DNA of 64,000 nucleotides from Hydrogenophaga pseudoflava (GTDB lineage Bacteria; Pseudomonadota; Gammaproteobacteria; Burkholderiales; Burkholderiaceae_C): contig NZ_JAVHJP010000005.1 of assembly GCF_031020795.1 (NCBI RefSeq), positions 316,834 through 380,833 on the forward strand. The letters are read 5' to 3'. How positions within the stretch are numbered: position 1 is the first letter of the stretch; the number at the start of each line of letters is the position of its first letter. The notes under the pieces are model-generated. The model did no database searches, was not told where the DNA came from, and worked only from the letters and a program-made list of their open reading frames with translations. Positions 10,282-33,239 of the stretch are shown one piece after another. The translations under genes and the position numbers were made by a program.

Positions 10282-10290
10282 GCCGCCGCC

Positions 10291-10308: not shown

Positions 10309-10367
10309 CGCACCAAGTCTGTTCACCGCCGGCCCGAACCGCCGGGTTTCTGACGCGCTTTGGTGCG
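10309..10367 (+). promoter_or_regulatory. possible NtrC enhancer half-sites
   Basis: CGCACCAA at 10309-10316 and its exact complement TTGGTGCG at 10360-10367 resemble the GCACCA and TGGTGC half-sites of NtrC enhancers. They lie about 31-90 bases upstream of the GG-N10-GC promoter element. The partner half of each site is imperfect, so this is a suggestion only. Confidence 0.4.
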
Positions 10368-10396
10368 TCGTGCGCCTTCAAAGGCCCCGCCCACCC

Positions 10397-10412
10397 TGGC
10401 ACGCTCCATGCA
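10397..10412 (+). promoter_or_regulatory. sigma54-type -24/-12 promoter upstream of guanidine riboswitch 1
   Basis: TGGCACGCTCCATGCA has the invariant GG (10398-10399) and GC (10410-10411) separated by exactly 10 bases, with a full TGGCACG -24 block. Transcription would begin near 10423, about 55 bases before the riboswitch aptamer. The same arrangement occurs before the second riboswitch. Confidence 0.62.
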
Positions 10413-10477
10413 TTGGGGGGTATCAGCATGGATGAGCGGTCTGTGACCGGTGGTTGCAGCGGCTCGTGCGTAGGTCC

Positions 10478-10568
10478 ACTAGGGTTCCGTCTGCGGCAAC
10501 GCAGGGTCTGGTCCGAGAGTGGGCCGGCCTCATCGCAGGCTCCACGGAGGGACAAAAGCCCGGGAGAA
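10478..10568 (+). promoter_or_regulatory. guanidine-I (ykkC) riboswitch, copy 1
   Basis: The conserved blocks of the ykkC class are all present in order: CTAGGGTTCCG (10479-10489), GGTCCGAGAG (10510-10519), and ACGGAGGGACAAAAGCCCGGGAGA (10544-10567, longest block cited by position). Between the first two is a CTGCG-GCAA-CGCAG hairpin. ykkC subtype 1 RNAs bind free guanidinium and turn on genes for its export or use. It precedes a substrate-binding protein gene, and guanidine assimilation genes lie under a second copy at 24199. This supports the guanidine subtype over the ppGpp or PRPP subtypes. Confidence 0.93.
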
Positions 10569-10588
10569 CGACATCAGATCGTCTCTCC
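10563..10588 (+). promoter_or_regulatory. possible expression-platform hairpin of riboswitch 1
   Basis: GGAGAACGA (10563-10571, the 3' edge of the aptamer) can pair with 10579-10588 (TCGTCTCTCC) if one C is bulged. This stem would compete with the aptamer's closing helix. No T-run follows, so control may be translational or Rho-dependent. A similar pairing is possible after copy 2. Confidence 0.4.
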
Positions 10589-10620
10589 TGCGCCCGTCCC
10601 ACATCAACCGGAGCTTTCCC

Positions 10621-11661
10621 ATGAAACTGGCTGGTCTCTTCTCCTCTCCCGCAGCGTCCACCTCTTCGTCTTCCCTGCTCGGCCGGCTGTTCAAGCCCGC
10701 GCTGGGCGCCGCGCTCTCGCTGGCCACGGCCGCCGCGATGGCCGCCCCCACCAACATGAAGATCGCCACCGTGGTGTGGATCGGCTACGGCCCGTTCTAC
10801 GTGGCCGAGTCGCTGGACCTGTTCAAGAAGTACAACCTCAAGGTCTCGCTGCAGGTCTTCACCGATCCGGCGCTGATCCCGCCCGCCATCGCCTCGGGCG
10901 CGGTGGACGGCGGCATGCTGACGTATGACCAGGTGGTCGGCCAGGTCGCGGCGGGCAAGGCCATGAAGGTGGTCATGCCCATCGACTATTCCAACGGCGG
11001 CGACGCCATCGTGGCCGACGGCTCGATCAAGTCGGTCAAGGACTTCAAGGGCAAGAAGATCGGCTACAACCCGCTCTCGCCCAGCGACTTCCTGCTGTCC
11101 TACGCGCTCAAGGTCAACGGCCTGAGCGAGAAGGACATCAGCCCCGTCAGCATGACGCCCGAAGCCGTGCCGGCGGCTATGGCCTCGGGCCAGCTGCCGA
11201 TTGGCGTGACCTACGAACCCAGCCTGTCGCAGATCCTCGGTCAGGGCGGCGGCAAGAAGTTCAAGGTGGTGTTCTCGTCCAAGGACGCGCCCGGCCTGAT
11301 CGCCGACGTGCTGGTGTTCGATGACAAGGCCATCAAGGCCAAGCCCGCCGAGATCAGCGGCCTCATCAAGGCCTACCTCGACGGCATGGCCTACATGAAG
11401 GCCAAGCCCGACGAGGCCGCCAAGATCATCGGCAAGTTCATGGGCGTCTCCGCCAAGGAAGCCAAGGAACAGATGGGCGGCGTCTACAACATCCCGCTGG
11501 CCGAGATGCCCAAGGCCTTCCTGCCCGCCAAGGAAACCACCTCCTACTACGCCAGCGGCGAAGTCATCGGCCAGCTGCTCAAGGCCAAGGGCCAGATCAG
11601 CGCCATCCCCGCCACCGAGGCGACCTTCGACGCCTCCCTGGTCAAGGCCCTGGCCAAGTAA
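10621..11661 (+). CDS. ABC transporter substrate-binding protein (NMT1/TauA-SsuA type), probable guanidine uptake
   Basis: The protein has 346 residues. An export signal ends near residue 43 (ALSLATAAAMAAP), followed by the nitrate/sulfonate/taurine-type binding fold (IATVVWIGYGPFYVAESLDLF, KSVKDFKGKKIGYNPLSPSD). ATG at 10621 has CGGAG nearby. It is the first gene behind guanidine riboswitch 1. No permease or ATPase lies in this operon. Those two genes sit behind riboswitch 2 at 24379-26141 and lack a binding protein of their own, so the three most likely form one transporter. Ligand specificity (guanidine or a larger guanidino compound) is inferred from the riboswitch. Confidence 0.85.
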   Translation: MKLAGLFSSPAASTSSSSLLGRLFKPALGAALSLATAAAMAAPTNMKIATVVWIGYGPFYVAESLDLFKKYNLKVSLQVFTDPALIPPAIASGAVDGGMLTYDQVVGQVAAGKAMKVVMPIDYSNGGDAIVADGSIKSVKDFKGKKIGYNPLSPSDFLLSYALKVNGLSEKDISPVSMTPEAVPAAMASGQLPIGVTYEPSLSQILGQGGGKKFKVVFSSKDAPGLIADVLVFDDKAIKAKPAEISGLIKAYLDGMAYMKAKPDEAAKIIGKFMGVSAKEAKEQMGGVYNIPLAEMPKAFLPAKETTSYYASGEVIGQLLKAKGQISAIPATEATFDASLVKALAK

Positions 11662-11674
11662 GACAGGAGGCGCC

Positions 11675-12685
11675 ATGCCCGCCCTGTTCCGGCACGCCGA
11701 CGGCGCGCTGCCCAACACGCTCGCCCTCGCGGTGACCGTGCTGGGCTGGCCCGCCGGCCTCTGGATGCTCGGCCAGAGCGCCTGGTGGCTCAACGCCGCC
11801 GGCGTGCTGCTGGTCGCGCTCACCCTCACCTGGTCGGCCTACTTCATCCACGAGTTCGCCCACCAGGCCATCTTCCGCACGCCGCAGGCCAACGAGCGCT
11901 GGGGCGTGGCCATGAGCTGGATCAACGGCAGCGCCTACGCCAGCTTCGACGACCTGCGCCGCAAGCACATGCGCCACCACGTCGAGCGCGCCGACGTCAT
12001 CACCTTCGACCACCAGGCCTTCCTGCGCGCGCGCCCCCTGGTGCGCCGTGTGGTCCTGGCGCTGGAGTGGCTGCACATCCCGGCGGTGGAGTTCGTGATG
12101 CGCGGCTTCGTCATCGCGCTGCCCTTCATGGACGAACGCAAGAAAGCCGCGCGCGGTCGCATCATCGGCGTGGCCGTGGTGCGGCTGGCGGCCTGGGCGC
12201 TGCTCGGGTGGTGGTCGCTCAAGGCGCTGGCGCTCTACGCGCTGGCCTACCTGCTGTTCGTGCACCTGCTGCGCTTTGCCGACTGCTTCCAGCACACCTA
12301 CGACGCCTACCCCATCCTCGACGACAGGCCGATCCCGCAGGACAAGCTGCGCGACCGCGCCTACGAGCAGGCCAACACCTACAGCGACGTGGTGGGCCTG
12401 GACGCCAAATGGCTCAACATGGTGTGGCTGAACTTCGGTTTCCACAACGCCCACCACGAGCGGCCCGTCGCGCCCTGGTACCAGCTGCCGGCCCTGCACC
12501 GGCAGCTGTATGCGGACCAAAGCCCGCAGGTGGTGACCGTGGGCGAGCTGCTGCGCGCCTACCACCGCCACCGCGTCACGCGTGTGCTGGCCAAGGACTA
12601 CGGCGAAGTGCTGCCGCCCGGCACGCCGCGCCGCGCCGACGGCTTCATCGGTGCGGTGGGCGTCTCGTTCCTGACCGCGGTATGA
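11675..12685 (+). CDS. membrane fatty-acid-desaturase-family di-iron oxygenase
   Basis: The protein has 336 residues and several membrane helices. All three histidine boxes of the membrane di-iron family are present: H59-E-F-A-H63, H98-M-R-H-H102 and H257-N-A-H-H261, plus the FADCFQHTYD segment. A strong AGGAGG precedes the ATG, 13 bases after the binding-protein gene, so it is translated from the guanidine-riboswitch transcript. Family members desaturate or hydroxylate acyl chains, alkanes or N-alkyl compounds. In this operon an oxidative attack on an alkyl-guanidine is an attractive inference, but no published example was recalled. A lipid-modifying role remains possible. Confidence 0.82.
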   Translation: MPALFRHADGALPNTLALAVTVLGWPAGLWMLGQSAWWLNAAGVLLVALTLTWSAYFIHEFAHQAIFRTPQANERWGVAMSWINGSAYASFDDLRRKHMRHHVERADVITFDHQAFLRARPLVRRVVLALEWLHIPAVEFVMRGFVIALPFMDERKKAARGRIIGVAVVRLAAWALLGWWSLKALALYALAYLLFVHLLRFADCFQHTYDAYPILDDRPIPQDKLRDRAYEQANTYSDVVGLDAKWLNMVWLNFGFHNAHHERPVAPWYQLPALHRQLYADQSPQVVTVGELLRAYHRHRVTRVLAKDYGEVLPPGTPRRADGFIGAVGVSFLTAV

Positions 12686-13467
12686 CGGTCCGCTACGGCC
12701 TGGAAGGCCGCACCGTGCTCATCACCGGCGCGGCCGGCGGCATCGGCCAGGCGCTCTCCCGCGCCTTTCTCGCGCAGGGTGCGCGGCTGATGCTGCTCGA
12801 CCGCGAGGCCGCGCCGCTGGACACGCTGGTCGAATCCCTGCACAGCCGCCAGGTGCACAGCGCCGTGTGTGATCTTGGCGACGACGCCGCTGTCAACGAA
12901 GCGGCCGCGCGGGTGGCGAACCGCTTCGGCCGGCTGGACGTGCTGGTGCACAACGCCGGCAGCGAGTACCCGACACCTGTCGATGAGGCGTCCGACGACG
13001 CCAACGCCCGCTGGGCCGCGCTGCTGGACAACAACGTCAGCGGCATGTGGCGGCTCACGCGCGCGCTGCTGCCGCATCTGCCGCGCGGCGCCAGCGTCAT
13101 CCACCAGTCCTCCATCTGGGGTCGCATCGGCGTGGCCGGCTTCTCGGCCTACAGTGCGAGCAAACACGCCATCGTCGGCCTCACACGCTCGCTGGCGCTG
13201 GAGCTGGGCCCGCGCGGCATCCGCGTCAACGCCGTCTGCCCCGGCTGGGTGCGCACCGCCGCCGCCATGCGCTCGCTCGCGGTCATGGCACGGGAACAGG
13301 GCCGCAGCGAAGCCGAGGTCGAACGCGAGATCCTCTCGCGCCAGGCCGTGCCGGTGATGCTCACGCCCGAGGACCTGGCCGACACCTTCCTGTTCCTGGC
13401 CAGCGACGGTTCGGCCGCGCTCACCGGTCAGTGCCTGTGCCCCAGCCATGGCGAGGTGATGCTGTGA
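12682..13467 (+). CDS. short-chain dehydrogenase/reductase
   Basis: The protein has 261 residues. It shows the classical SDR pattern: Rossmann TGAAGGIGQ at about 15-23, NAG in VLVHNAGSEY, catalytic serine in IHQSSIWG and YSASK (Tyr-x3-Lys). ATGA overlap with the desaturase indicates translational coupling. It would oxidise or reduce a hydroxyl/carbonyl group with NAD(P). In this operon it could act on an alcohol made by the desaturase-family oxygenase. The exact substrate cannot be read from sequence. Confidence 0.85.
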   Translation: MTVRYGLEGRTVLITGAAGGIGQALSRAFLAQGARLMLLDREAAPLDTLVESLHSRQVHSAVCDLGDDAAVNEAAARVANRFGRLDVLVHNAGSEYPTPVDEASDDANARWAALLDNNVSGMWRLTRALLPHLPRGASVIHQSSIWGRIGVAGFSAYSASKHAIVGLTRSLALELGPRGIRVNAVCPGWVRTAAAMRSLAVMAREQGRSEAEVEREILSRQAVPVMLTPEDLADTFLFLASDGSAALTGQCLCPSHGEVML

Positions 13468-14216
13468 CGCTGCCCACCCTCTCCCTGCAGGGCCGCACGG
13501 CGCTGATCACCGGCGGCGCCACGGGCATCGGCCGCGCCACCGCGCTGCTGTTGGCCCAGGCCGGTGCCACCGTCTGGGTGAACCACCTCGGTCAGGCCGA
13601 TGCCGCCGCCGCACTGGTCGAGCAGATCCGGACCGCCGGTGGCAGTGCGCAGGCCATCCAGGCCGACGTGAGCCAAGCCGTCGCGGTGCAGGCCATGGCG
13701 GAAGCGGTGGGCGCCGTGGACGTGCTGGTGAACAACGCCGGCGTCATCCAGGAGAAGGCGTTTCTGGAGACCACCGAGGCCGACTGGGACCGCCTGCTGG
13801 GCGTGGACCTCAAGGCCGTGTTCCTGGTCTGCCGCGCCTTCATTCCCGGCATGCTTTCAAAGGGCCGGGGCGCCATCGTCAACATGGCGTCCGACCTCGG
13901 CATCCTGGGCCGCGAGCGCTACGCGCCCTACTGCGCGGCCAAGGCCGGCGTGATGGGCCTGACCAAATCGCTGGCGCGCGAGTTCGCGCCGCAGCAGATC
14001 CGCGTCAACGCCATCGCGCCCGGTCCGGTGGCCACCGCCATGGTCTCGCTCGAACACATGAGCGCCGAGTGGGTGGAGAAGGAACTCGCCATCCCGCAGC
14101 ACCGGCTGGCCGCGCCGGAGGAGATCGCCGCCACCGCGCTCTTCCTCGCCTGCGACCTGTCGGGCTTCTACACCGGCCAGGTGCTCGGTCCCAACGGCGG
14201 GTCGGTCATGCCCTGA
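13464..14216 (+). CDS. short-chain dehydrogenase/reductase (second SDR)
   Basis: The protein has 250 residues with a GTG start in a GTGA overlap with the previous SDR stop. TGGATGIGR (cofactor loop), NNAG, NMASDLG and Y-x3-K (YCAAK) are all in place. The C-terminus (PNGGSVMP) is typical of FabG-like SDRs. It is co-expressed with the first SDR but clearly divergent from it, so the two may catalyse consecutive steps. The substrate is unknown. Confidence 0.85.
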   Translation: MTLPTLSLQGRTALITGGATGIGRATALLLAQAGATVWVNHLGQADAAAALVEQIRTAGGSAQAIQADVSQAVAVQAMAEAVGAVDVLVNNAGVIQEKAFLETTEADWDRLLGVDLKAVFLVCRAFIPGMLSKGRGAIVNMASDLGILGRERYAPYCAAKAGVMGLTKSLAREFAPQQIRVNAIAPGPVATAMVSLEHMSAEWVEKELAIPQHRLAAPEEIAATALFLACDLSGFYTGQVLGPNGGSVMP

Positions 14217-14226
14217 ACGCAATCCC

Positions 14227-15177
14227 ATGAAGCTGCTGCCCGCCCACCCCACCGACCGCGTCGCCACGGCCGTGCTGCTGTTCTCGGCCACGCTCTGGGG
14301 CCTGACCTGGATGCCGCTGAAGGGCTTCATCGCCCAGGGCCTGCCCGGACCGCTGGTCTCACTGCTCACCTACGGCTCGGTGGGCGTGCTGGCCGTGGCG
14401 CTGCTCTGGCACGACCGCGCCGCCTGGCGCACGCAGTGGGGCCTGGTGCTCGCGCTCACGCTGGTCGGCGGCTGGGCCAACACCTCGTTCGTCAACGCGG
14501 TGATGCTGGGCGACGTGGCGCGGGTGATGTTCCTGTTCTACCTCTCGCCCGTGTGGTCGGTGCTGGGCGGCTGGCTGTTCCTGAAGGAGCGCATCCCGCC
14601 CGCGCGCTGGGCGGCGGTGGCCGGCGCCATCGTCGGGCTGTGGCTGGTGCTCGGCGGGCCGGGCCTGGGCGGCGCCGAGGCGCTGGCCTTCACCTGGGTC
14701 GACGCGCTCTCGCTCTCGGCCGGCCTCGCCTTCGCGGCCAACAACGTGATCGCGCGCGCCGCGCACCGCGTGCCGCTGCGCACCAAGACCTTCGCCGTCT
14801 TTGTGGGCTGTGGACTGCTCTCGGCCGTCGCCACCGCACTGTCCGGGCGCGAGCTGCCCGCCATCGGTGCGTGGCTCTGGATCGCGCTGCTGGCCTACGG
14901 CTTTGGCTGGATGCTGCTGGCCACGGTGACCTGGCAGTACGGCGTGAGCCACCTGGAGAGCAGCCGCGCCGGCGTGATCCTGCTGGCCGAGCTGCTCGTG
15001 TCGGTGGGCACGGCCATTGCATTCGGTGGGGAGAGCCTCAGCCCGATGGGCTGGGCCGGCGGCGCGCTGATCAGCTGTGCGGCGCTGGCCGAGGCCCTGT
15101 TCCCGCCCGCCGACCCGACCATGACCGAGACACCCGCCCCCCACCCCATCGCCGCCAGCGGCCCCCGCACGCCATGA
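14227..15177 (+). CDS. EamA-family drug/metabolite transporter (10 TM)
   Basis: The protein has 316 residues with about ten hydrophobic helices in two EamA repeats (first repeat around SATLWGLTWMPLKGF; second with LESSRAGVILLAELLVSVG). The gap from the second SDR is 10 bases, and the stop overlaps the creatininase start. Many guanidine-riboswitch operons carry a small SMR exporter. Here a full-length EamA protein occupies the transporter slot, either exporting a metabolite or importing the pathway substrate. Direction and substrate are not inferable. Confidence 0.82.
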   Translation: MKLLPAHPTDRVATAVLLFSATLWGLTWMPLKGFIAQGLPGPLVSLLTYGSVGVLAVALLWHDRAAWRTQWGLVLALTLVGGWANTSFVNAVMLGDVARVMFLFYLSPVWSVLGGWLFLKERIPPARWAAVAGAIVGLWLVLGGPGLGGAEALAFTWVDALSLSAGLAFAANNVIARAAHRVPLRTKTFAVFVGCGLLSAVATALSGRELPAIGAWLWIALLAYGFGWMLLATVTWQYGVSHLESSRAGVILLAELLVSVGTAIAFGGESLSPMGWAGGALISCAALAEALFPPADPTMTETPAPHPIAASGPRTP

Positions 15178-15956
15178 ACACCACCGTCTGGATGAACCAG
15201 CTTTCCTGGGTCGACTACCAGCGGCGCATCCGCACCGAGCACCCGCCCGTGCTGCTGCCCGTGGGCGCGCTCGAACAGCACGGCCCGCACCTGCCACTGG
15301 GCACCGACGGCCTGCTCGCTGCGGCCGTGGCGGCCGACACCGCCGCGCTCGTCGGCGGCCTGGTCGCGCCCACGCTGAGCTACGGCTACAAGTCGCAGCC
15401 CAAGTGCGGCGGCGGCCAGCACTTCTGCGGCACCACCAGCGTCGACGCCGCCACGCTGATCGGCCAGGTGCGCGATGCGGTGCGCGAGTTCGCGCGCCAC
15501 GGCGTCGACAAGCTGGTGGTCGTCAACGGCCACTACGAAAACCAGTGGTTCCTCATCGAAGGCATCGACCTCGGCCTGCGCGACGCCAGGGCCGCCGACC
15601 CGGCCTGCGCGCTGCAGGTGATGCGGCTCGAATACTGGGACTTCATGACGCCCGAGACCCTGGGCCACGTGTTCCCCGAGGGCTTCCCCGGCTTCGCGCT
15701 GGAACACGCGGCCGTGCTGGAGACGTCGATGATGCTGCACCACCACCCCAGCCTGGTGCGCATGGACCTGCTGCCCGACGACGGCCCGGCCGATTTCCCG
15801 CCGTATGACATGTACCCGCCGCGCACCGACTGGGTGCCGCCCTCGGGCGTGCTCTCGTCCGCCAAAGGCTCCGACGCGGTCAAGGGACAACTGCTCGCCG
15901 ACGAGGTGGCGCGCCGCATGGCGGGCGCCATCACCACCGGATTCACCCGCCCATGA
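15174..15956 (+). CDS. creatininase (creatinine amidohydrolase) family enzyme
   Basis: The protein has 260 residues, the usual creatininase length. Metal ligands occur at the positions I recall from the Pseudomonas enzyme: E34, H36 (GALEQHG), D45, H120 and E122 (NGHYEN). Tyr121 and stretches GYKSQPKCGGGQHF, GTTSVDAATL, EGIDLGLRD, YWDF and FPPYD are also shared. The known reaction is reversible hydrolysis of cyclic creatinine to creatine. The closeness suggests a true creatininase or an enzyme opening a similar cyclic guanidine or hydantoin-like amide, rather than a distant formamide hydrolase. No creatinase gene is present in the window. It has ATGA overlaps with genes on both sides. Confidence 0.83.
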   Translation: MNTTVWMNQLSWVDYQRRIRTEHPPVLLPVGALEQHGPHLPLGTDGLLAAAVAADTAALVGGLVAPTLSYGYKSQPKCGGGQHFCGTTSVDAATLIGQVRDAVREFARHGVDKLVVVNGHYENQWFLIEGIDLGLRDARAADPACALQVMRLEYWDFMTPETLGHVFPEGFPGFALEHAAVLETSMMLHHHPSLVRMDLLPDDGPADFPPYDMYPPRTDWVPPSGVLSSAKGSDAVKGQLLADEVARRMAGAITTGFTRP

Positions 15957-16630
15957 CCTCCCTGCAAGACCTCGACCCTTCGACCACGGCGCTCATCGTC
16001 ATCGACATGCAGCGCGACTTCTGCAGCCCCGGCGGCTACGCCCACCAGGCCGGGCTGGACATCGCGCGCATGCAGGCCGTGGTGGGCCAGGTGAAGGCCC
16101 TGCTGGTGGCCGCGCGCGCGGCCGGCCTGCACGTGTTCCACACGCGCGAAGGCCACCTGCCCGACCTCTCGGACTGCCCGCCCGCCAAGCTCGCGCGCAG
16201 CGTGGCGGCCGGTGCACCCATCGGCAGCGCCGGCCCCCTGGGCCGCCTGCTGGTGCGCGGCGAACAGGGCCACGACTTCGTGCCCGAGCTGCGCCCGCTG
16301 TCTTGCGAACACGTGATCGACAAACCCGGCTATGGCGCCTTCCACAAGACCACGCTGGGCGCGCTGCTGGGCGCCTTCGGCATCCGCCGCCTGCTGCTGT
16401 GCGGTGTCACCACCGAGGTCTGCGTGCATTCCACGCTGCGCGAGGCCATCGACCGCGGCTTCTTCTGCACCACCGTGGGCGACGCCACCGCCGCCAGCCA
16501 GGCCGAGCTGCAGGCCCCGGCGCTGGCCATGATCGGCGTCGAAGGCGGCATCTTCGGCGGCGTCTGCGGCACGGCCGAGGCCGTGGCCGCGCTCAATGCC
16601 CTGCCGCGCGCGAACCGGGAAGCGGCGTGA
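15953..16630 (+). CDS. isochorismatase-like cysteine hydrolase (biuret/ureido amidohydrolase type)
   Basis: The protein has 225 residues. The catalytic triad is visible as D18 (VIDMQRDF), K124 (VIDKPGYGAF) and C157 (GVTTEVCVHST). HTREGHLPDLSDCPPAKL and the GVTTEVCVHSTLREA block resemble biuret hydrolase, guanylurea hydrolase and N-carbamoylsarcosine amidase more than isochorismatases. Such enzymes release ammonia from carbamoyl or ureido compounds. ATGA overlap with the creatininase argues that it acts on a product of the same pathway. The precise substrate is open. Confidence 0.83.
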   Translation: MTSLQDLDPSTTALIVIDMQRDFCSPGGYAHQAGLDIARMQAVVGQVKALLVAARAAGLHVFHTREGHLPDLSDCPPAKLARSVAAGAPIGSAGPLGRLLVRGEQGHDFVPELRPLSCEHVIDKPGYGAFHKTTLGALLGAFGIRRLLLCGVTTEVCVHSTLREAIDRGFFCTTVGDATAASQAELQAPALAMIGVEGGIFGGVCGTAEAVAALNALPRANREAA

Positions 16631-16634
16631 ACCC

Positions 16635-17264
16635 ATGAACCACTGGATCGACCTGCCCGCACCCGACGAGCCCGTGCCCGACGCCTACCGCGGCGTCTGG
16701 CAACGCACCCTGCTCGAAACCCCCGAGGGCCGCGACACGACCACGCGGGTGCACTGGCTGCAGACCGGAGGCTGGCACGCCGACCTGCGTGTGCCCGCGG
16801 GCGTGGACCCTGCCACGCCCGAAGGCCGCGCGCAGCTGCAGGGCTTCTGCGGCCTCACCCGCATCACGCCCGGCGCGAGTGGGCAGCCCGATGTCTGCAC
16901 CTGGCATCGCCGCTGGGACGTGCAGCCGCCGCGCAGCACGCCCGACGCGGGGTACATGGTGTTCGAGACCAGCGAATGCGTGATCGAGACCGGCGTGCAC
17001 GGCCGCTACCTCGAGGTGTGGGAGCGCCTGCCCGGCTCCACCGGGCCCTGCGCCGCGGTGGCCGAGCTTGATGCCGAAGGCCAGGCCACGGGCCTGATGC
17101 GCTTCACGGCCGGCCGGTACACGCTCACCGTGCGCCCGCGCCGTGCCACCTGGCCGGCCGACCTGCGGCCCGACGAGACCCTGGCCGAACTGGTGCAGCG
17201 CCACCCCGCCGAGGCCGGCGCCTTGCTGGACTTCGAGCTGGTGTTCAGCGAGACACCGGCCTAG
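16635..17264 (+). CDS. uncharacterised 209-residue protein of the guanidine-riboswitch operon
   Basis: I do not recognise this protein. It has no signal peptide or membrane segment. It is rich in tryptophan and beta-prone stretches (RVHWLQTGGWHADLRVP, TWHRRWDVQPP, YMVFETSECVIETG, YLEVWERLPG), which suggests a lipocalin/calycin-like barrel or a small-molecule-binding beta protein. It starts four bases after the cysteine hydrolase and ends nine bases before the metallo-beta-lactamase gene, so it is firmly inside the operon. It could be a binding protein or a new enzyme of the pathway. Confidence 0.75.
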   Translation: MNHWIDLPAPDEPVPDAYRGVWQRTLLETPEGRDTTTRVHWLQTGGWHADLRVPAGVDPATPEGRAQLQGFCGLTRITPGASGQPDVCTWHRRWDVQPPRSTPDAGYMVFETSECVIETGVHGRYLEVWERLPGSTGPCAAVAELDAEGQATGLMRFTAGRYTLTVRPRRATWPADLRPDETLAELVQRHPAEAGALLDFELVFSETPA

Positions 17265-17273
17265 AGTGTTCCC

Positions 17274-18041
17274 ATGCTCCCGACCCTCGACGGCGACTGG
17301 TTTGAATTCCGCTCCCTCGGCGACGGCCTCACGCTGATCACCGAGCCCCACGTCGTCCCGCTGCTCCGCTGCAACATCTGGCACATCCGCGGCCGCGACA
17401 TCGACCTGGTGGTCGACACCGGCCTGGGCGTCAGCAGCCTCCACCAGGCCTCGCGCCACCTGTTTGGCCACCGCGTGGCGGCGCTCGCCACGCACGTGCA
17501 CCTGGACCACGTCGGCGGCCACCACGAGTTCGCCGAGTGCTGGTGCCACCGGCTCGAAGCGCCCGGCCTGCGCGGCGCCGACCCGGCCTTCACCCTGGGC
17601 GACATCGACCTCCGGCGGCTGGACTTCGCCGCGCCCGGCTACGAAACCGGTGGCGCCGCCCTCACCGCGCTGCCCGCGCCCGACTACGACCTCTCGGCCT
17701 GGGAGATCCAACAGGCCACGGTGACGCGCGAACTCGAAGACGGCGACGTGATCGACCTGGGCAACCGCCACTTCGAGGTGCTGCACCTGCCCGGCCACTC
17801 GCCCGGCAGCATCGGCCTCTGGGAGGCGAAGACCGGCACCCTGTTTTCGGGGGATGCGGTCTACGACGGCCCGCTGCTCGACGCGCTGCCACATTCCGAC
17901 CGCGCCGCCTACGAGCGCACCATGGAGCGCCTGCTGGGCTTGCCGGTGAACGTGGTGCACGCCGGCCACGACCCGAGCTTCGGGCGCCAGCGCCTGCACG
18001 AGCTGGTGCGTGCGTACCTCGACCGCCCGTCACCGCCCTGA
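17274..18041 (+). CDS. metallo-beta-lactamase-fold hydrolase
   Basis: The protein has 255 residues. The dinuclear metal site motif H74-x-H76-x-D78-H79 (THVHLDHVGGH) is followed by LHLPGHSPGSIGL, FSGDAVYDG and VHAGHDPSF, giving the full set of histidine/aspartate ligands. No export signal is seen, so it is probably cytoplasmic. Family members hydrolyse thioesters, lactones, amides or phosphodiesters. It is the last closely spaced gene of the riboswitch-1 operon (nine-base gap upstream, 46-base gap downstream). Confidence 0.85.
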   Translation: MLPTLDGDWFEFRSLGDGLTLITEPHVVPLLRCNIWHIRGRDIDLVVDTGLGVSSLHQASRHLFGHRVAALATHVHLDHVGGHHEFAECWCHRLEAPGLRGADPAFTLGDIDLRRLDFAAPGYETGGAALTALPAPDYDLSAWEIQQATVTRELEDGDVIDLGNRHFEVLHLPGHSPGSIGLWEAKTGTLFSGDAVYDGPLLDALPHSDRAAYERTMERLLGLPVNVVHAGHDPSFGRQRLHELVRAYLDRPSPP

Positions 18042-18087
18042 CCGCACAAGGCCGGCGCTGCGCGCCGAATGCGACGACACTGCAGGC

Positions 18088-18858: not shown

Positions 18859-18882
18859 GCGCGGCGCCGGCGGCGCGCGGCC

Positions 18883-20152: not shown

Positions 20153-20167
20153 GTCGCCAGTGGTGGG

Positions 20168-22645: not shown

Positions 22646-22646
22646 T

Positions 22647-24180: not shown

Positions 24181-24198
24181 CTCGCAGCCTTGAATGAC

Positions 24199-24309
24199 CG
24201 CTAGGGTTCCGGGCGCTGCGCATACATATATGTAGACAGCAGCGCCGCCTGGTCCGAGAGCGGTCGGCCACGATCGTGTGGCTCCACGGAGGGACAAAAG
24301 CCCGGGAGA
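24199..24309 (+). promoter_or_regulatory. guanidine-I (ykkC) riboswitch, copy 2
   Basis: The blocks CTAGGGTTCCGG (24201-24212), GGTCCGAGAG (24251-24260) and ACGGAGGGACAAAAGCCC onward (24287-24309) match copy 1. The variable arm is longer here: GGCGCTGC pairs perfectly with GCAGCGCC and encloses an ACATATATGT stem. It precedes the permease, ATPase, carboxyguanidine deiminase, carboxylase and allophanate hydrolase genes, the classical guanidine-assimilation set, so guanidinium is the expected ligand. Confidence 0.94.
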
Positions 24310-24346
24310 AGCTGGCATGCCGCTGATGCGGTTGCGCGAGCCTCTC
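24306..24346 (+). promoter_or_regulatory. possible expression-platform pairing of riboswitch 2
   Basis: GAGAAGCT (24306-24313, overlapping the aptamer's 3' edge) can pair at seven of eight positions with AGCCTCTC (24339-24346), with a CCGC-TGAT-GCGG hairpin inside. The geometry parallels copy 1. No T-run follows. Confidence 0.35.
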
Positions 24347-24378: not shown

Positions 24379-25275
24379 ATGTCCACGTCTCCCCCTTCGT
24401 TTCCGCTGGTGGCCCCGGCGCCTGTCGCCGAGGCGGCTGCGCTGCAGCCCGCGCCCTTGGCGCCACTGCCAGCCCGCCGTCCGCTGTCCTCGCTCTGGAC
24501 GGTGCGCGCGCCCATCAACCGCCGCGCCTACTGGGTGCTCGCGCTCACCGGCCTCGTGCTGCCGCTGCTGGCCTGGGCCGCGCTGGCCGCCTGGGGCGGG
24601 CTGGACCCGACTTTCATGCCCTCGCCCGGGGCGGTGATGGGCAAGTTCTGGGCATGGCTGACCGAGAACGACCTGCTCAACGACATGGCGATCAGCACCT
24701 ACCGCGTGGTCGCGGGCTTCGTGCTCTCGGCCGTGTTCGCGCTGCCGCTGGGCCTGTTCATCGGCTCGTTCCGTTCGGTGCAGGCGCTGCTGGAGCCGCT
24801 GACCGACTTCATCCGCTACATGCCGGCGGTGGCCTTCATTCCGCTGGTGATGCTGTGGGTGGGCATCGACGAGGGTTCCAAGATCGCCATCATCTTCATC
24901 GGCACCTTCTTCCAGATGGTGCTGATGGTGGCCGAAGACGTGCGGCGCGTGCCGGCCGCGCAGGTGGAGGCGGCGCAGACCATGGGCGCCAGCCGCGCCG
25001 AGCTGATCGAAAAGGTCATCCTGCCCAGCGCCAAGCCCGCGCTGCTGGACACGCTGCGCATCACCATGGGCTGGGCCTGGACCTACCTGGTGGTGGCCGA
25101 ACTGGTGGCGGCCAACTCGGGCCTGGGCTACGCCATCCTGCGCGCGCAGCGCTTCCTGCAGACCGACACCATCTTCGCGGGAATCATCGTCATCGGCCTC
25201 ATCGGCCTGTTGACCGACCAGCTGTTCCGCCTGGCCCACCGCAAAGCCTTTCCCTGGCTCTACCTGAAAGGCTGA
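24379..25275 (+). CDS. ABC transporter permease (guanidine uptake, NitT/TauT-type)
   Basis: The protein has 298 residues with about six transmembrane helices and the permease EAA loop (VEAAQTMGASRAELIEKVILP) that docks on the ATPase. GGAG precedes the ATG 70 bases after riboswitch 2. It is the first gene of the guanidine-assimilation operon. No binding protein is encoded here; the likely partner is the riboswitch-1 gene at 10621. The substrate is inferred from the riboswitch and the downstream enzymes. Confidence 0.88.
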   Translation: MSTSPPSFPLVAPAPVAEAAALQPAPLAPLPARRPLSSLWTVRAPINRRAYWVLALTGLVLPLLAWAALAAWGGLDPTFMPSPGAVMGKFWAWLTENDLLNDMAISTYRVVAGFVLSAVFALPLGLFIGSFRSVQALLEPLTDFIRYMPAVAFIPLVMLWVGIDEGSKIAIIFIGTFFQMVLMVAEDVRRVPAAQVEAAQTMGASRAELIEKVILPSAKPALLDTLRITMGWAWTYLVVAELVAANSGLGYAILRAQRFLQTDTIFAGIIVIGLIGLLTDQLFRLAHRKAFPWLYLKG

Positions 25276-25280: not shown

Positions 25281-26137
<857 letters not shown>

Positions 26138-26141
<4 letters not shown>

Positions 26142-26992
26142 CACCCACCAACACCTACCCCCTGCCCGAGACGCTCACCGACCCGCTGAGCGTGATCCCC
26201 TCCAACCCGCCGGCCGCGATGCCGGTGGACGCGCCCGCGCTGTGGCAGCGCTTTCCTCAAACCTCGCTGGCGGGCGTGCACACCGGCCATGCGATGTGGA
26301 GCGAGGTCATGCCCGGCGGCAGCCACTGGAGCTGGCGCATGCCGCGCGGCAGCGCAATCCGATTCGTGGCGCTGGAAGCCGGCGCCAACGTGAGCGTGGT
26401 CATGTACTCGGCGCTGGAAAAGCTGGAGCGCTACAACATGCCCGACAGCCTCAAGGCGCAGCACACCGCGCACTACGGCAAGGGCCATGTGCTGATGAGC
26501 GACATGGGCCGCAGCATGGCCAGCGTCACCGCCGACAGCCTGGGCTGGCACGACCCGCTGGGCGCGCTGCTCGACAACGAGCTGATGACCGCGAAATACG
26601 GCGAGCGGCGCTACGAACAGGCGCGCAACGCCATGCACCGTTCGGGCAAAGACGGCCTGCTGATCGAGATCGGCAAGTACGGCCTGACCAAACGCGACCT
26701 CGTGGCGCCGGTCAACCTGTTCAGCAAGGTGAGCGTGGACGAGCATGGGCGCTTTCATTTCGCGAAGGACCACAGCCGCGCGGGCGACTTCGTCGAGCTG
26801 CGCTTCGACATGGACGTGATCGTCGCCGTCTCCAGCGCGCCGCACCCGCTGGACCCTGCCCCTGAGTGGTCACCGAAGAAGGTGGGCCTGCTGGCCTGGC
26901 GCTGCGGCGCCGCGCCGGCCCACGACGCCTGCCGCGCCTTCCGCCCGGAGAACGCGCGGGCGCTGCACAACAGCGACATGCTCTACCTGTGA
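26138..26992 (+). CDS. carboxyguanidine deiminase subunit, DUF1989 (UAAP1-type)
   Basis: The protein has 284 residues of the DUF1989 family, long annotated as urea-amidolyase-associated protein 1. GHAMWSEVMPGGSHWSWRMP, DMGRSMASVTADSLGWHDPL and the C-terminal LAWRCGAAPAHDACRAFRPE contain candidate metal-binding histidines and cysteines. In established work the two DUF1989 partners (CgdA/CgdB) together deiminate carboxyguanidine to allophanate and ammonia. Which of the two genes here corresponds to CgdA cannot be fixed from sequence alone, so no symbol is given. ATGA overlap with the ATPase gene. Confidence 0.87.
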
Positions 26993-27008: not shown

Positions 27009-27677
27009 ATGAACGCCACCACCGCCACCGACATCCGCATCCAGGAAAGCGCGCTCGACCCGGCCGCCGCCGTGATGAACCAGCGCCACCCCGCGGGCGA
27101 GCCCATCCTGTTCGCCGTCCACAAAGGCCAGACCCTGCGCATCGTGGACCTCGAAGGCAACCAGGCCGCCGACGTGATCTTCTACAACCGCGACGACCTG
27201 GCCGAGCACTACAGCGCAACCGACACCATGCTGCACCAGGGCGGCATCTACCTGACCACCGGCTCGGTGATCCGCAGCAACGAGGCGCGGCCCATGCTCA
27301 CCATCGTGGCCGACACCTGCGGCCGCCACGACACGCTCGGCGGCGCCTGCGCGGCCGAGAGCAACACCGTGCGCTACGCGCTGCAGAAGAAGTTCATGCA
27401 CAGCTGCCGCGACAACTACCTGATTGCGCTGCAGCGCGCCGACATGGGCCTGACCAAGCGCGACCTGGTGCCCAACATCAACTTCTTCATGAATGTGCCG
27501 GTGACCGGCGAAGGCGGGCTCAAGTTCGACGACGGCGTGTCCGGCCCGGGCAAGTACGTGGAGATGCGCGCCGAGATGGACCTCTGGGTGCTGATCAGCA
27601 ACTGCCCGCAGCTCAACAACCCGTGCAACGCCTACAACCCGACCCCCATTCAACTCATTGTTTGGGACCCGGTCTGA
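27009..27677 (+). CDS. carboxyguanidine deiminase subunit, DUF1989 (UAAP2-type)
   Basis: The protein has 222 residues, the second DUF1989 partner. Characteristic segments are LRIVDLEGNQAADVIFYN, VADTCGRHDTLGGACAAES, KFMHSCRDNYLIAL and NCPQLNNPCNAYNPTPI, with conserved Cys/His groups for a metal site. It works as a heteromer with the preceding protein in carboxyguanidine deimination. GAGGAG precedes its ATG. Confidence 0.88.
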   Translation: MNATTATDIRIQESALDPAAAVMNQRHPAGEPILFAVHKGQTLRIVDLEGNQAADVIFYNRDDLAEHYSATDTMLHQGGIYLTTGSVIRSNEARPMLTIVADTCGRHDTLGGACAAESNTVRYALQKKFMHSCRDNYLIALQRADMGLTKRDLVPNINFFMNVPVTGEGGLKFDDGVSGPGKYVEMRAEMDLWVLISNCPQLNNPCNAYNPTPIQLIVWDPV

Positions 27678-27699
27678 CCGACCCTTGTGAAACCGGCCA

Positions 27700-27743
27700 G
27701 CAGGACGGCCTGCTGCGCGACACCCCTCGGCAGGACGGCCTGC
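27700..27743 (+). repeat. pair of 14-base palindromic direct repeats between deiminase and carboxylase genes
   Basis: GCAGGACGGCCTGC occurs at 27700-27713 and again, identically, at 27730-27743. Each copy can fold as GCAGG-ACGG-CCTGC. They fill the 79-base gap before the carboxylase gene and could act as mRNA-stabilising or processing hairpins that adjust expression within the operon. Confidence 0.55.
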
Positions 27744-27756: not shown

Positions 27757-30700
27757 ATGTTCCGCAAGGTCCTGATCGCCAACCGCGGCGCCATCGCCTG
27801 CCGCATCATCCGCACGCTCAAAGCCCTGGGCGTGCAGAGCGTGGCCGTGTATTCCGAGGCCGACGCGATGGCGCGCCACGTGCGCGAAGCCGACGAGGCG
27901 TATCTGCTCGGCCCCGCGCCCGCGGCCGAGAGTTACCTCAGAGCCGATCGCATCCTGCAGATCGCCCGCGACTGCGGCGCCGAAGCCATCCACCCCGGCT
28001 ACGGCTTCCTGTCGGAGAACCCCGGCTTTGCCCAGGCCTGCGAAGACGCGGGCATCGCCTTCATCGGCCCCACGCCCGAGCAGATGCGCGCCTTCGGCCT
28101 GAAGCACACGGCGCGCGACCTGGCCGAGCAGCGCGGCGTGCCGCTGCTGCCCGGCACCGGCCTTCTGGCGGACGCGGCGCAGGCCCGCGCCGAGGCGCTG
28201 CGCATCGGCTACCCGGTCATGCTCAAGAGCACGGCCGGCGGTGGCGGCATCGGCATGCGCCTGGTGTGGAGCGAAGACGAACTGAGCGACGCGTTCGCCT
28301 CGGTGCAGCGCCTGGCCAGCGCCAACTTCAAGGACGCCGGCCTGTTCCTGGAAAAGTACGTGGAGCAGGCGCGCCACATCGAGGTGCAGGTCTTCGGCGA
28401 CGGCGCGGGCACGGTGCTCGCGCTGGGCGAGCGCGACTGTTCGGTGCAGCGCCGCAACCAGAAGGTGATCGAAGAGACCCCCGCGCCGGGCCTGACGGAG
28501 GCACAACGCCACGAGCTGCACGCCACCGCCGTGCGGCTGGCGCAGGCGGTGAACTACCGCTCGGCCGGCACGGTGGAATTCGTCTACGACGCGGCCACCG
28601 GCCAGTTCTACTTCCTCGAAGTCAACACCCGCCTGCAGGTGGAACACGGTGTGACCGAGCAGGTGACCGGGGTCGATCTTGTGGCGTGGATGGTGCAACT
28701 CGCGGCCGGCGACCTCCCTTCACTGGACTCGTTGAAGCCCACGCCACAAGGCGCGTCCATCCAGGTGCGGCTGTACGCCGAAGACCCGGCCAAGAACTTC
28801 CAGCCCAGCGCCGGTCTGCTGACCGAAGTGGTGTTCCCCACCGATGCACGCGTCGATGGCTGGGTCGAACGCGGCACCGAGGTGCCCGCCTGGTACGACC
28901 CCATGCTGGCCAAGCTCATCGTCACCGCACCGGACCGCGAGCAGGCGCTGGCCAAGCTCGACGCCGCGCTGGCCGCCACGCGCCTGGCCGGCATCGAGAC
29001 CAACCTGGGCTACCTGCGCCAGGTGGTGCGCGACCCGGTGTTCCGCGAAGGCCGGCAGGTCACGCGTTTTCTCAACAGCTTCCACTTCCGCCCCGCCACC
29101 GTCGAAGTGGTCGAACCCGGCGTGCAGACCAGCGTGCAGGACTGGCCGGGCCGCCTGGGCCACTGGGACGTGGGCGTGCCGCCCAGCGGCCCCATGGACG
29201 CCTACGCCCACCGCATGGCCAACCGCCTGGTGGGCAACGCCGACGACGCGGCCGCGCTGGAGATCACGCTCTCGGGCCCCACGCTGCGCTTCAACGCCGA
29301 GGCGGTGATCGCCGTGACCGGCGCTCCGGTCAAGGTCATGCTCGACGGCGCGCCGCTGACCATGTGGCAGAGCCACCGCGTGGCCGCCGGCAGCGTGCTT
29401 GCCATCGGCCGGGCCGAGGCTGGTGCGCGCCTGTGCCTGGCCGTCGGTGGCGGCTTCGACGTGCCGCTGTACCTGGGCAGCCGAAGCACCTTCACGCTCG
29501 GCCAGTTCGGCGGCCATGCGGGGCGGCACCTGCGCACCGGCGACGTGCTGCACCTGGCCTCGCCGGGCGCCGGCACGGCCGGCATGAGCGCCGCCCCGGA
29601 CACCGTGCCGGCCTTCACCCACCACTGGGACGTGGGCGTGCTCTACGGCCCGCACGGCGCGCCCGACTTCTTCACGCCCGACGACGTGGCCACCTTCTTC
29701 GCCACCGACTGGGAGGTGCACTACAACTCCAGCCGCACCGGCGTGCGCCTGATCGGCCCCAAGCCGCAGTGGGCGCGGGCCGACGGTGGCGAGGCCGGCC
29801 TGCACCCGTCGAACATCCACGACAACGCCTACGCCATCGGCGCCATCGACTTCACCGGCGACATGCCGGTCATCCTCGGCCCCGACGGCCCCAGCCTCGG
29901 CGGCTTCGTCTGCCCGGCCGTGGTGGTGGACGCCGAACTCTGGAAGCTCGGCCAGCTGCGCCCCGGCGACACGGTGCGCTTCCACCGCCTCTCGCTCGAT
30001 CAGGCGCTGGACCGCAGCGCGACCGTCGAAGCCGCGCTGACCTCGCTCGCGCAGCCCCTGCCCGCCACGCCGAACGACGACCCAACCGCCCACCCCACAC
30101 CCGTCGTCCACGAAGACCCGGCCCGCGAAGACGAGGCCGTGCCCGCCATGGTGGTGCGCCAGGCCGGCGACCGTTACCTGCTGGTCGAGTTCGGCCCGCT
30201 GGTGCTCGACATCGAACTGCGCCTGCGCGTGCATGTGCTCATGCAGGCGCTGCAAGCGCGCATGGCAGCAGGCACGCTGCCCGGCATCGTCGACATGACA
30301 CCCGGCATCCGTTCCCTGCAGCTGCACTTCGACCCGTCCCAGGTCTCGCGCGCCGAGTTGCTGAAGGTGCTGGTCGAGGCTGAGGCCGCGCTGCCCGCGG
30401 TGGACGACATGGAGGTGCCCAGCCGCATCGTGCACCTGCCGCTGAGCTGGGACGACCCGCAGACCAAACTCGCCATTCAGAAGTACATGCAGTCGGTGCG
30501 GCCCGACGCGCCCTGGTGCCCGAGCAACATCGAGTTCATCCGCCGCATCAACGGGCTGGACAGCATCGACGACGTGTTCAAGGTCGTGTTCGACGCCAGC
30601 TACCTGGTGCTGGGCCTGGGCGACGTCTACCTGGGCGCGCCCGTGGCCACGCCGGTGGACCCGCGCCACCGCCTGGTGACCACCAAGTACAACCCCGCGC

Positions 30701-31383
30701 GCACCTGGACGCCCGAGAACGCCGTCGGCATCGGCGGCGCCTACCTCTGCGTCTACGGCATGGAAGGCCCCGGCGGCTACCAGTTCGTCGGCCGCACGCT
30801 GCAGATGTGGAACCGCTGGCGCCACGGCGAGCCCGGCTCCGTGTTCGAGCAGCCCTGGCTGCTGCGCTTCTTCGACCAGATCCGCTTCGTGCCGGTGGAC
30901 CAGGACGAGCTGCTGCGCATCCGAGCCGCCTTCCCGCATGGCGGCTACGCGCTGCAAGTCGAAGAGACCACCTTCAGCCTGCGCGACTACCGCCGCTTCC
31001 TGGCCGACAACGCACCGAGCATCGGCGCCTTCAAGGCGCAGCAGCAGGCCGCCTTCGACGCCGAGCGCGAGCGCTGGGCCGCGAGCGGCCAGCTGACCTA
31101 CGCGGGCGACGCCGACGTGGCTGCGGCCGACGCCAGCGTCGAGCTGGATCTGCCGCCCGGCGGCCGGCCGCTGGCCAGCAGCGTGCCTGGCAGCGTGTGG
31201 AAGGTGCTGGTCAGCGAAGGCCAGCGCGTGGCCGCGGGCGACGTGCTGCTCGTCGTCGAGTCCATGAAGATGGAATTCAGCGTGCTCGCGCCGCAGGACG
31301 CCACCGTGCACCGCCTCATGTGCCGCGAAGGCGCGCCCGTGGCCGCCGGCCAGGACGTGCTGGTGCTCGTCACCGAAGACTGA
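27757..31383 (+). CDS. guanidine carboxylase (urea-carboxylase-type biotin enzyme)
   Basis: The protein has 1208 residues, the full length for this family. A biotin carboxylase with ATP-grasp motifs occupies about residues 1-450 ([41 protein letters not shown]). A carboxyltransferase made of a KipA-like part (about 450-760) and a KipI-like part (about 790-1010) follows. A biotinyl domain at the C-terminus carries biotin-acceptor Lys1171 in ESMKMEF. Homologues in guanidine-riboswitch operons with two DUF1989 partners carboxylate guanidine using ATP and bicarbonate, although databases often call them urea carboxylase. Substrate preference over urea is inferred from context. Confidence 0.92.
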
Positions 31384-31409
31384 ACAGAACCGAATCAGCG
31401 GATCCCCCC

Positions 31410-33239
31410 ATGACCACGAACTTGCAAGACCTGTCCTTCGACCTCGCCAGCCTGCGCGCCGCCTACGCCGCTGGCACCCCCGTGCGCGCCGTCATCGCCG
31501 AAGCCATGCGCCGCTGCGCCAGCGACGCGCACCACGCCTTCATCCACCGCCTGACCGACGCCGAGATCGAGCCCTACGTCGCGCACCTCGACGGCGTGGA
31601 CCCGGTCAGTCTGCCGCTGTACGGCGTGCCGTTTGCGATCAAGGACAACATCGACCTCGCGCACATCCCCACCACCGCCGGCTGCCCCGAATACGCGTAC
31701 ACGCCGGGCGAGAGCGCCTTCCTCGTGCAGCGGCTCATTGCGGCCGGCGCCGTGCCGCTGGGCAAGGCCAACCTCGACCAGTTCGCCACCGGCCTCAACG
31801 GCACGCGCTCGCCCTACGGCGCCTGCCGCAATGCCTTCAACCCCGACTTCGTCTCGGGCGGCTCCAGCTCCGGCTCGGCCGTGAGCGTGGCCAAGGGCTG
31901 GGTCAGCTTCTCGCTGGGCACCGACACGGCCGGCTCGGGCCGCGTGCCCGCCAGCTTCAACAACCTGATCGGCCTCAAGCCCAGCATCGGCCTGCTCTCG
32001 GCCACCGGCGTGGTGCCGGCGTGCCGGTCGGTGGACACCGTGTCCATCTTCGCGCTCACCGCCGCCGACGCGCAGGCCGTGCTCGCCGTGGCCGCTGTGC
32101 CCGATGCGGCCGACGCCTTCAGCCGCGCCGCCAAACCCTTCGGCGTGGACTTCTCGGCCAGCCACTTCCGTTTCGGCGTGCCGCGCCCGCAGGACCTCAA
32201 CTTCTTCGGCAACGACGCGGCCGTCGAACTGTTCGCGCAGAGCATCGAACGCCTGCACGCCCTCGGCGGCACCGCGGTGGAGGTGGACCTCACCCCCTTC
32301 CTCGAAGCAGCGCGACTGCTCTACGAAGGCCCCTGGGTGGCCGAGCGCTACGTCGCCATCCAGGACTTCATCGACGCACAGCCCGAGGCCGTGTTCCCGC
32401 CCGTGCGCACCATCATCGAAGGCGGCAAGGCCAAGACCGCCGCCGACGCCTTCGCCGCGAGCTACAAGCTCAAGGCCCTCAAGCGCGTGTGCGACGCCGT
32501 GTGGCAGGACGTGGACTGCCTGCTCACGCCCACGGCGGGGACGATCTACCGCATCGCCGACATGCAGGCCGGCCCGATCCGCCTGAACAGCAACCTGGGC
32601 TACTACACCAACTTCATGAACCTGCTGGACTACGCCGCCGTCGCGGTGCCCGCCGGCTTCCAGGCCAGCGGCGACGCGCAAGGCCTGCCCTGGGGCGTGA
32701 CCCTGGCCGCGCCCGCGTTCAAGGACGTGCCGCTGCTGCGCCTGGCCGACCGGTTTCACCGCGCGCAGGCCGCGTTGTCACTCGGCGCCACCAACGCGAC
32801 GCTGGCCGACACCCCCGCCATCGGCACCGAGCTGCCCAAAGGCAGCAACACCGCCGGCACCGTCAAGGTCGCGGTCTGCGGCGCCCACCTCAGCGGCCTG
32901 CCGCTCAACTGGCAACTCACCCAGCGCGGCGCGCGCCTGCTCGGCGCGGTCCAGTCCGCGCCCGAATACAAGTTCTACGCCCTGGCCGGTGGCCCGGTCC
33001 AGCGGCCCGGCATGGTGCGCGTCAACGAAGGCGGCGCCGCCATCGACATGGAAGTCTGGGAACTGCCCGCCGAACACTTCGGCAGCTTCGTCGACGGCAT
33101 CCCCGCCCCGCTGGGCATCGGCAAGGTGAAGCTGGCCGACGGGTCGTGGGTGAGCGGGTTTGTGTGCGAGGCGATCGGGGTGGAGGGGGGGGCCGAGATC
33201 ACTGCGCTGGGGAGTTGGCGGGCTTGGTTGGCGCAGTAG
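31410..33239 (+). CDS. atzF: allophanate hydrolase
   Basis: The protein has 609 residues. The amidase-signature domain (about 1-450) has the Ser-cisSer-Lys triad elements FAIKDNIDLA and SGGSSSGSAVSVAKG. A C-terminal domain (about 470-609, VAVCGAHLSGLPLNWQLTQ onward) is characteristic of AtzF/DUR1 allophanate hydrolases and converts the intermediate N-carboxycarbamate. The overall reaction is allophanate to two ammonia and two carbon dioxide, the last step of guanidine assimilation. It lies 26 bases after the carboxylase; no strong ribosome-binding site is visible. Confidence 0.93.
   Translation: MTTNLQDLSFDLASLRAAYAAGTPVRAVIAEAMRRCASDAHHAFIHRLTDAEIEPYVAHLDGVDPVSLPLYGVPFAIKDNIDLAHIPTTAGCPEYAYTPGESAFLVQRLIAAGAVPLGKANLDQFATGLNGTRSPYGACRNAFNPDFVSGGSSSGSAVSVAKGWVSFSLGTDTAGSGRVPASFNNLIGLKPSIGLLSATGVVPACRSVDTVSIFALTAADAQAVLAVAAVPDAADAFSRAAKPFGVDFSASHFRFGVPRPQDLNFFGNDAAVELFAQSIERLHALGGTAVEVDLTPFLEAARLLYEGPWVAERYVAIQDFIDAQPEAVFPPVRTIIEGGKAKTAADAFAASYKLKALKRVCDAVWQDVDCLLTPTAGTIYRIADMQAGPIRLNSNLGYYTNFMNLLDYAAVAVPAGFQASGDAQGLPWGVTLAAPAFKDVPLLRLADRFHRAQAALSLGATNATLADTPAIGTELPKGSNTAGTVKVAVCGAHLSGLPLNWQLTQRGARLLGAVQSAPEYKFYALAGGPVQRPGMVRVNEGGAAIDMEVWELPAEHFGSFVDGIPAPLGIGKVKLADGSWVSGFVCEAIGVEGGAEITALGSWRAWLAQ

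Follow-up and report, generated by a model that had tools for sequence, protein, structure and literature searches.

Where free guanidine comes from is an open question behind the guanidine riboswitches, and it is raised again by a 64,000-nucleotide stretch of Hydrogenophaga pseudoflava DNA (contig NZ_JAVHJP010000005.1, positions 316,834 to 380,833; hereafter the window), which holds two operons preceded by such riboswitches, operon 1 (10621-18041; genes g1 to g9) and operon 2 (24379-33239). We consider it likely that operon 1 extends the guanidine carboxylase pathway of operon 2 by guanidine-releasing steps, in which the membrane di-iron FA_desaturase-family (FADS) protein g2 would hydroxylate a substituted guanidine and the g8 protein would lyse the product. 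Three guanidine riboswitches are assigned from their Rfam scores (Table 1), and guanidine binding is predicted for them; the one in front of operon 1, proposed in an earlier sequence-only reading of this DNA, is confirmed by a score well above the gathering score. Terminator and promoter scans over 10281-24700 gave no more than in shuffled sequence, so that neither a transcriptional nor a translational mode of switching is favored.

The nine open reading frames (ORFs) of operon 1 are separated by 13, -4, -4, 10, -4, -4, 4, and 9 bases, and their coordinates bear out the earlier description of nine genes that overlap by 4 bases or lie at most 13 bases apart. The families named in that description were also recovered by Pfam, namely NMT1 (the substrate-binding protein, SBP), FA_desaturase, two short-chain dehydrogenases (SDRa and SDRb), EamA, Creatininase, Isochorismatase (g7), and Lactamase_B (the metallo-beta-lactamase-fold, MBL, hydrolase), with g8 having no Pfam family. 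With g2 as the query, 84,980 genomes yielded 80 loci, which we examined by local tblastn. Judged by their record titles, all of these come from taxa that fit Burkholderiales, and the closest named relatives of g2 occur in Hydrogenophaga flava and H. pseudoflava (95-96%). The recurring order is SBP, FADS, SDRa, SDRb, EamA, creatininase, g7, MBL, and g8, with lineage-specific absences, in genera that include Hydrogenophaga, Rhodoferax, Polaromonas, Aquabacterium, Rubrivivax, and Noviherbaspirillum. A covariance model made from 18 Guanidine-I copies located an aptamer at most 89 bases from g1 in 73 of the 76 testable loci, and the three others (L060, L075, and L108) are each located downstream of transporter or carboxylase genes. 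The gene order is not due to chance, because it recurs across genera and the aptamer so regularly precedes the first gene. The sequence-only reading had named a neighborhood not conserved beyond the binding protein as its own refutation; across the Burkholderiales loci the order extends past that gene. The cluster is situated near a carboxylase operon, on the same strand, in 31 loci, and g8 is present in 62 of the 64 clusters with g2 that do not run into a contig end. Of 300 genomes of the order sampled separately, 23 contain a FADS relative at E 1e-20 or better.

The g8 protein, previously left as an unknown beta-rich protein, can now be placed in a family. It has no Pfam or NCBIfam match, loose thresholds included, and nothing was found when plasmids were searched with a g8 relative. 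A profile (A1) from an alignment of 19 g8 copies matched in 7 of 369 genomes of the class and led to a protein of locus L128 (L128:8723-9397, E 3.3e-44) that is 31% identical to g8. In L128, this gene directly follows a 2-oxoglutarate (2OG) dioxygenase gene, itself behind a carboxylase gene, with atzF further downstream and both a Guanidine-I and a Guanidine-II riboswitch in place; locus L126 likewise has carboxylase, 2OG dioxygenase, and MgdL-like genes in a row. The gene arrangement of L128 is that published for the MgdH/MgdL operon of Vreelandella boliviensis, whose MgdL, described in 2025, is an N-(hydroxymethyl)guanidine lyase narrow for this substrate and needs D49 and R51 for activity, as shown by mutation (PMC12508155). 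The L128 homologue has an Asp-x-Arg motif at exactly these residue numbers, and the corresponding D50/R52 of g8 is invariant in 63 of 63 Burkholderiales copies. W22, R24, D34, W41, Q43, W90, E118, E127, and W129 are also invariant, and the Trp, Glu, and Asp among them correspond in type to the residues that are proposed to bind guanidine in MgdL. In addition, W47, H48, and T75 are found in g8 as well as in both MgdL-position proteins, whereas the four other members of the family that were examined have different residues there. The AlphaFold2 (AF2) model of g8 (pLDDT 96.1) is a beta-rich, barrel-like structure consisting mostly of strands, a fold as described for MgdL; in the PDB it found only weak lipocalin-like and other barrel matches, and Foldseek returned no match under E 0.001. 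From homology, gene position, and residue numbering, g8 is taken as an MgdL-family lyase with a predicted activity, and the guanidine-releasing step is probably the C-N cleavage of a hydroxylated intermediate, a step absent from the earlier interpretation.

Other members of this family were also observed. One is a second MgdL-family gene in the genome of L128 (L129:6745-9381), which stands behind PhyH-type and MgdH-like 2OG dioxygenase genes and is followed by polyamine-type ATP-binding cassette (ABC) genes; because the residues beside its catalytic pair differ, its sequence suggests that the protein acts on another guanidino substrate. At L125:9349-18881, an MgdL-family gene is accompanied by genes for EamA, an NMT1-type SBP, a permease, an ATPase, a distant creatininase-family protein, a glutamine-synthetase-like protein, a NikR-like regulator, and CgdA/B-like proteins, and no recognized FADS or MgdH gene was found in this neighborhood.

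An MgdL-type lyase needs a hydroxylated substrate, yet an MgdH-type 2OG dioxygenase has no match in the window and none beside the lyase gene. Since g2 is the only oxygenase-type gene in the cluster, it most likely replaces MgdH as the N-alkylguanidine hydroxylase. The g2 protein matches PF00487 with 114 bits and has three histidine boxes (H59xxxH63, H98xxH101H102, and H257xxH260H261), whose motifs HEFAH, KHMRHH, and HNAHH are kept across 81 sequences; a PDB sequence search gave nothing, and Foldseek gave no match under E 0.001. The minimal operon of L130, comprising a riboswitch, FADS, MBL, MgdL-like lyase, and EamA, pairs FADS and lyase without most of the other genes, and this pairing lends support to the oxygenase-type enzyme that the sequence-only reading had put in a guanidine-releasing role. 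Methylguanidine would be the likeliest substrate, because MgdL is narrow for the hydroxymethyl compound and g8 resembles MgdL most around the catalytic pair. A literature search, which covered few subscription papers, yielded no publication that connects a FADS-family protein with guanidine operons. Some clusters, in L112, L114 (L114:10001-14557), and several of the 300-genome sample, contain two different FADS genes, which may correspond to two separate hydroxylations.

Operon 2 has all the enzyme parts of the guanidine carboxylase pathway (gca, CgdAB, and AtzF), and its riboswitches and context point to guanidine rather than urea as the substrate of its carboxylase. These parts, together with the proximity of the cluster to carboxylase operons, support the proposed delivery of guanidine from operon 1 to operon 2. 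Operon 2 starts with a permease gene, and no protein of the genome matches the SBP of the L128 guanidine operon better than g1 does (25% identity), with no second close SBP of the guanidine-operon type found there; hence, g1 probably completes the operon 2 ABC transporter and both operons share one importer. The identity of g1 as a binding protein therefore stands as first described, and its importer role is refined to that of a likely partner of the operon 2 transporter. Compared with the known pathway, the binding protein of the window appears to be encoded in operon 1.

From the riboswitches, gene order, families, catalytic residues, conservation, and link to the carboxylase operon, all read from the sequence, we infer the hydroxylase role of g2, its substrate, the order of the steps, and the roles of g3-g6 and g9. 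The g1 protein and the operon 2 permease and ATPase would import guanidine and/or a substituted guanidine; g2 would hydroxylate the carbon beside the guanidine nitrogen, most likely the methyl of methylguanidine; and g8 would cleave the hemiaminal into guanidine and an aldehyde, which would be formaldehyde if the substrate is methylguanidine. Guanidine would then switch on both riboswitches, and operon 2 would carboxylate, deaminate, and hydrolyze it to ammonia and CO2. In addition, g7 would release guanidine from guanylurea or a similar N-acylguanidine, and the SDRs and creatininase would probably feed in further cyclic or acylated guanidino compounds. The V. boliviensis operon (PMC12508155) has in common with the window the Guanidine-I and Guanidine-II riboswitches, the ABC transporter, CgdAB, the carboxylase, AtzF, and a lyase of the MgdL family whose catalytic pair is identical, but there are differences: the hydroxylase role falls, as proposed, to a membrane di-iron FA_desaturase-family protein here and to a 2OG dioxygenase there, the genes form two operons instead of one, and the window additionally encodes the SDRs, EamA, the creatininase-family enzyme, the guanylurea-hydrolase-type enzyme, and MBL. 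The hydroxylate-lyse-carboxylate logic is thus already known for methylguanidine, with an unrelated hydroxylase and several enzymes added here; the earlier statement that no described pathway has this gene set needs qualifying, as the hydroxylase-plus-lyase logic was published in 2025 for halophiles, with a different hydroxylase (PMC12508155). The cluster is common in Burkholderiales and suggests that an unrelated oxygenase takes part in freeing guanidine enzymatically from substituted guanidines. It also suggests a function for the unannotated g8 family, present in more than 60 clusters, and lets a new reaction be predicted for membrane di-iron enzymes. Through it, creatininase-family and guanylurea-type enzymes become linked to guanidine sensing, which bears on the breakdown of creatinine, metformin, and nitrification-inhibitor residues.

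Several points weigh against this guanidine-releasing pathway. Characterized FA_desaturase-family enzymes mostly act on hydrophobic substrates, and we know of none that acts on a guanidine. Outside Burkholderiales, the MgdL-position proteins pair with a 2OG dioxygenase and not with a FADS protein, and the L128 protein is equated with V. boliviensis MgdL by position and residue numbers. L060 and L108 have a FADS gene without a local lyase gene; nine of the 62 clusters with g8 contain neither SDR nor creatininase, so clusters need not have all nine genes; and MBL and EamA have no firm role in the favored model.

The SDRs and the creatininase are the point from which the pathway could be extended to creatinine. 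Of the 62 clusters with g8, 53 have SDR and creatininase together and 9 have neither (Fisher's test p 5e-11, which ignores relatedness), and the best FADS tree needs seven parsimony changes for each, with two independent pairs well supported; they behave as one module that is present or absent as a whole. The g6 protein belongs to the same family as Pseudomonas putida creatininase (PDB 1j2t/1v7z) and keeps the five metal ligands (E34, H36, D45, H120, and E122) as well as W154, E177, and H178. No creatinase gene is found in its cluster, and a literature search for Guanidine-I with creatininase found no paper. In contrast, it differs at S78, W174, and D175, which we take to be residues with a substrate role in the P. 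putida enzyme, and S78C, W174F/Y, and D175A are found in all 59 cluster sequences. An extension that we think rather unlikely, although it accounts for most of the enzymes, including the joint travel of SDR and creatininase, would have g2 convert creatinine to creatol (5-hydroxycreatinine), an SDR oxidize creatol to creatone A, g6 open the ring to creatone B, and g7 or MBL cut creatone B into oxalate and methylguanidine, which g2 and g8 would demethylate to guanidine. The series creatinine, creatol, creatone, and methylguanidine is known in mammals, where enzyme catalysis of the steps is unclear (PMC11970497), and a kept metal site with changed pocket residues is what a modified ring might require. 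However, only two independent SDR/creatininase pairs fall on well-supported branches, g6 passes the creatininase cut-off, so that plain creatinine hydrolysis is possible, and clusters without SDR and creatininase exist. Slightly less probable still is that enzymes carry creatinine all the way to guanidine and ammonia, by way of creatol, the creatones, and methylguanidine, with the membrane di-iron oxygenase hydroxylating; if true, this would be a bacterial creatinine pathway distinct from the creatine and N-methylhydantoin routes, with the first FA_desaturase-family enzyme to act on a guanidine.

The g7 protein bears on the next two alternatives. Its label as a biuret hydrolase was rejected on pocket residues and on the score of NCBIfam NF050097 (246.4 bits, below the BiuH cut-off of 370). 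BiuH has Gln215 and Lys145, whereas the g7 family has Glu at 215 in 57 of 58 sequences (one gap) and Tyr at 145 in 57 of 58; with Q215E the catalytic efficiency of BiuH is 115 per M per s instead of about 150,000 (about 1300-fold lower on biuret), and K145 variants are inactive (PMC5806882). A paralogue of g7 elsewhere in its genome (L032) retains Lys and Gln as in BiuH. The g7 protein is 58% identical to UZZ13643.1, a cysteine hydrolase on plasmid pMET-2 that adjoins a deaminase gene, has the same Glu215/Tyr145, and is linked by this position to the GuuH-type enzyme BB_00025 of the metformin-degrading Pseudomonas mendocina MET, which was purified and hydrolyzes guanylurea with very little biuret activity (PMC9800807). 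Compared with BB_00025, g7 keeps the catalytic Cys/Asp/Lys but has Glu instead of Asp at position 173, and it is located within a FADS-lyase operon instead of beside SBP, deaminase, and ABC genes on a plasmid. The missed cut-off, the Glu/Tyr pocket, and the identity to a purified guanylurea hydrolase together make a guanylurea-hydrolase-type enzyme the best reading of g7, which corrects the carbamoyl-removing role given to it before.

With both g6 and g7 expected to attack amide bonds beside the guanidine carbon, and with g6, g7, or both in each cluster with g8, an SDR could turn the hydroxylated N-alkylguanidine by oxidation into an N-acylguanidine, in the case of methylguanidine into N-formylguanidine; g6 or g7 would hydrolyze this product to guanidine and a carboxylate without free formaldehyde, leaving the lyase as a parallel exit. 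The long life of N-(hydroxymethyl)guanidine (PMC12508155) would allow for this, but g7 occurs without SDR in 9 of the 62 clusters and hardly any untruncated cluster lacks the lyase, and we regard such a route as distinctly unlikely. The close relationship of g7 to a hydrolase from a metformin-degrading strain could also mean that the cluster mainly serves man-made guanylurea (from metformin or dicyandiamide), with g7 as the key enzyme; this is quite improbable, as g7 is absent from 6 of the 62 clusters in which g2 and g8 stay, and the cluster is spread over many genera. That g2 is an ordinary lipid desaturase or hydroxylase, with only the binding protein under riboswitch control and the other genes as passengers, is very improbable: Pfam does put g2 in FA_desaturase and no solved structure is closely related, but the genes overlap, FADS and MgdL-type lyase stay paired down to the minimal operon of L130, and the cluster recurs near the carboxylase operon.

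The MBL gene varies among the relatives. Many have, instead of the g9 type, a different MBL between g7 and g8, and the two were not seen together; the assumption of one constant MBL gene was rejected, as the two alternate and some clusters have neither. The alternative MBL that replaces the window's g9, for example at L054:15126-15950, is lactonase-like, with its best scores to AiiA and 4-pyridoxolactonase models.

Table 1. Riboswitches and genes of the two operons, with coordinates in the window.
Feature	Position	Strand	Evidence
Guanidine-I riboswitch aptamer, operon 1	10468..10568	+	Rfam RF00442, 83.9 bits (gathering score 63)
g1, NMT1-type ABC substrate-binding protein	10621..11661	+	PF09084, 2.4e-26
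g2, membrane di-iron FADS protein, proposed N-alkylguanidine hydroxylase	11675..12685	+	PF00487, 1.2e-32
g3, SDRa	12682..13467	+	PF13561
g4, SDRb, GTG start	13464..14216	+	PF13561
g5, EamA-family transporter	14227..15177	+	PF00892, 9e-20
g6, creatininase-family amidohydrolase, altered pocket residues	15174..15956	+	TIGR04448, 350.9 bits (cut-off 235)
g7, guanylurea-hydrolase-type cysteine hydrolase	15953..16630	+	58% identity to UZZ13643.1 (pMET-2); Isochorismatase Pfam family
g8, predicted MgdL-family lyase (N-(hydroxymethyl)guanidine lyase homologue)	16635..17264	+	Profile match to L128 protein; D50/R52
g9, MBL hydrolase	17274..18041	+	PF00753, 8.9e-16
Guanidine-I riboswitch aptamer, operon 2	24190..24310	+	RF00442, 88.0 bits (gathering score 63)
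ABC permease, operon 2	24379..25275	+	SaoP/TauC/SsuC-type
ABC ATPase, operon 2	25281..26141	+	TIGR01184-type
UAAP1, corresponds to CgdA/B subunit	26138..26992	+	TIGR03425, 331.7 bits (cut-off 205.95)
UAAP2, corresponds to CgdA/B subunit	27009..27677	+	TIGR03424, 335.7 bits (cut-off 284.7)
Guanidine-II riboswitch, operon 2	27697..27743	+	RF01068, 32.2 bits (gathering score 32)
Guanidine/urea carboxylase	27757..31383	+	TIGR02712, 1901.7 bits (cut-off 1303.85)
Allophanate hydrolase AtzF	31398..33239	+	TIGR02713, 786.5 bits (cut-off 511.05)

Behind operon 1, a gene for a trypsin-like (PF13365) protein at 18088-18858 is kept in H. flava and H. pseudoflava and is probably unrelated to the operon. 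Directly after operon 2, in the region 33464-36036, one ORF weakly matches a PtuA-like ATPase and another resembles a Dam-family methyltransferase. Neither score comes near the curated cut-off, and the region is possibly a small defense-type island.

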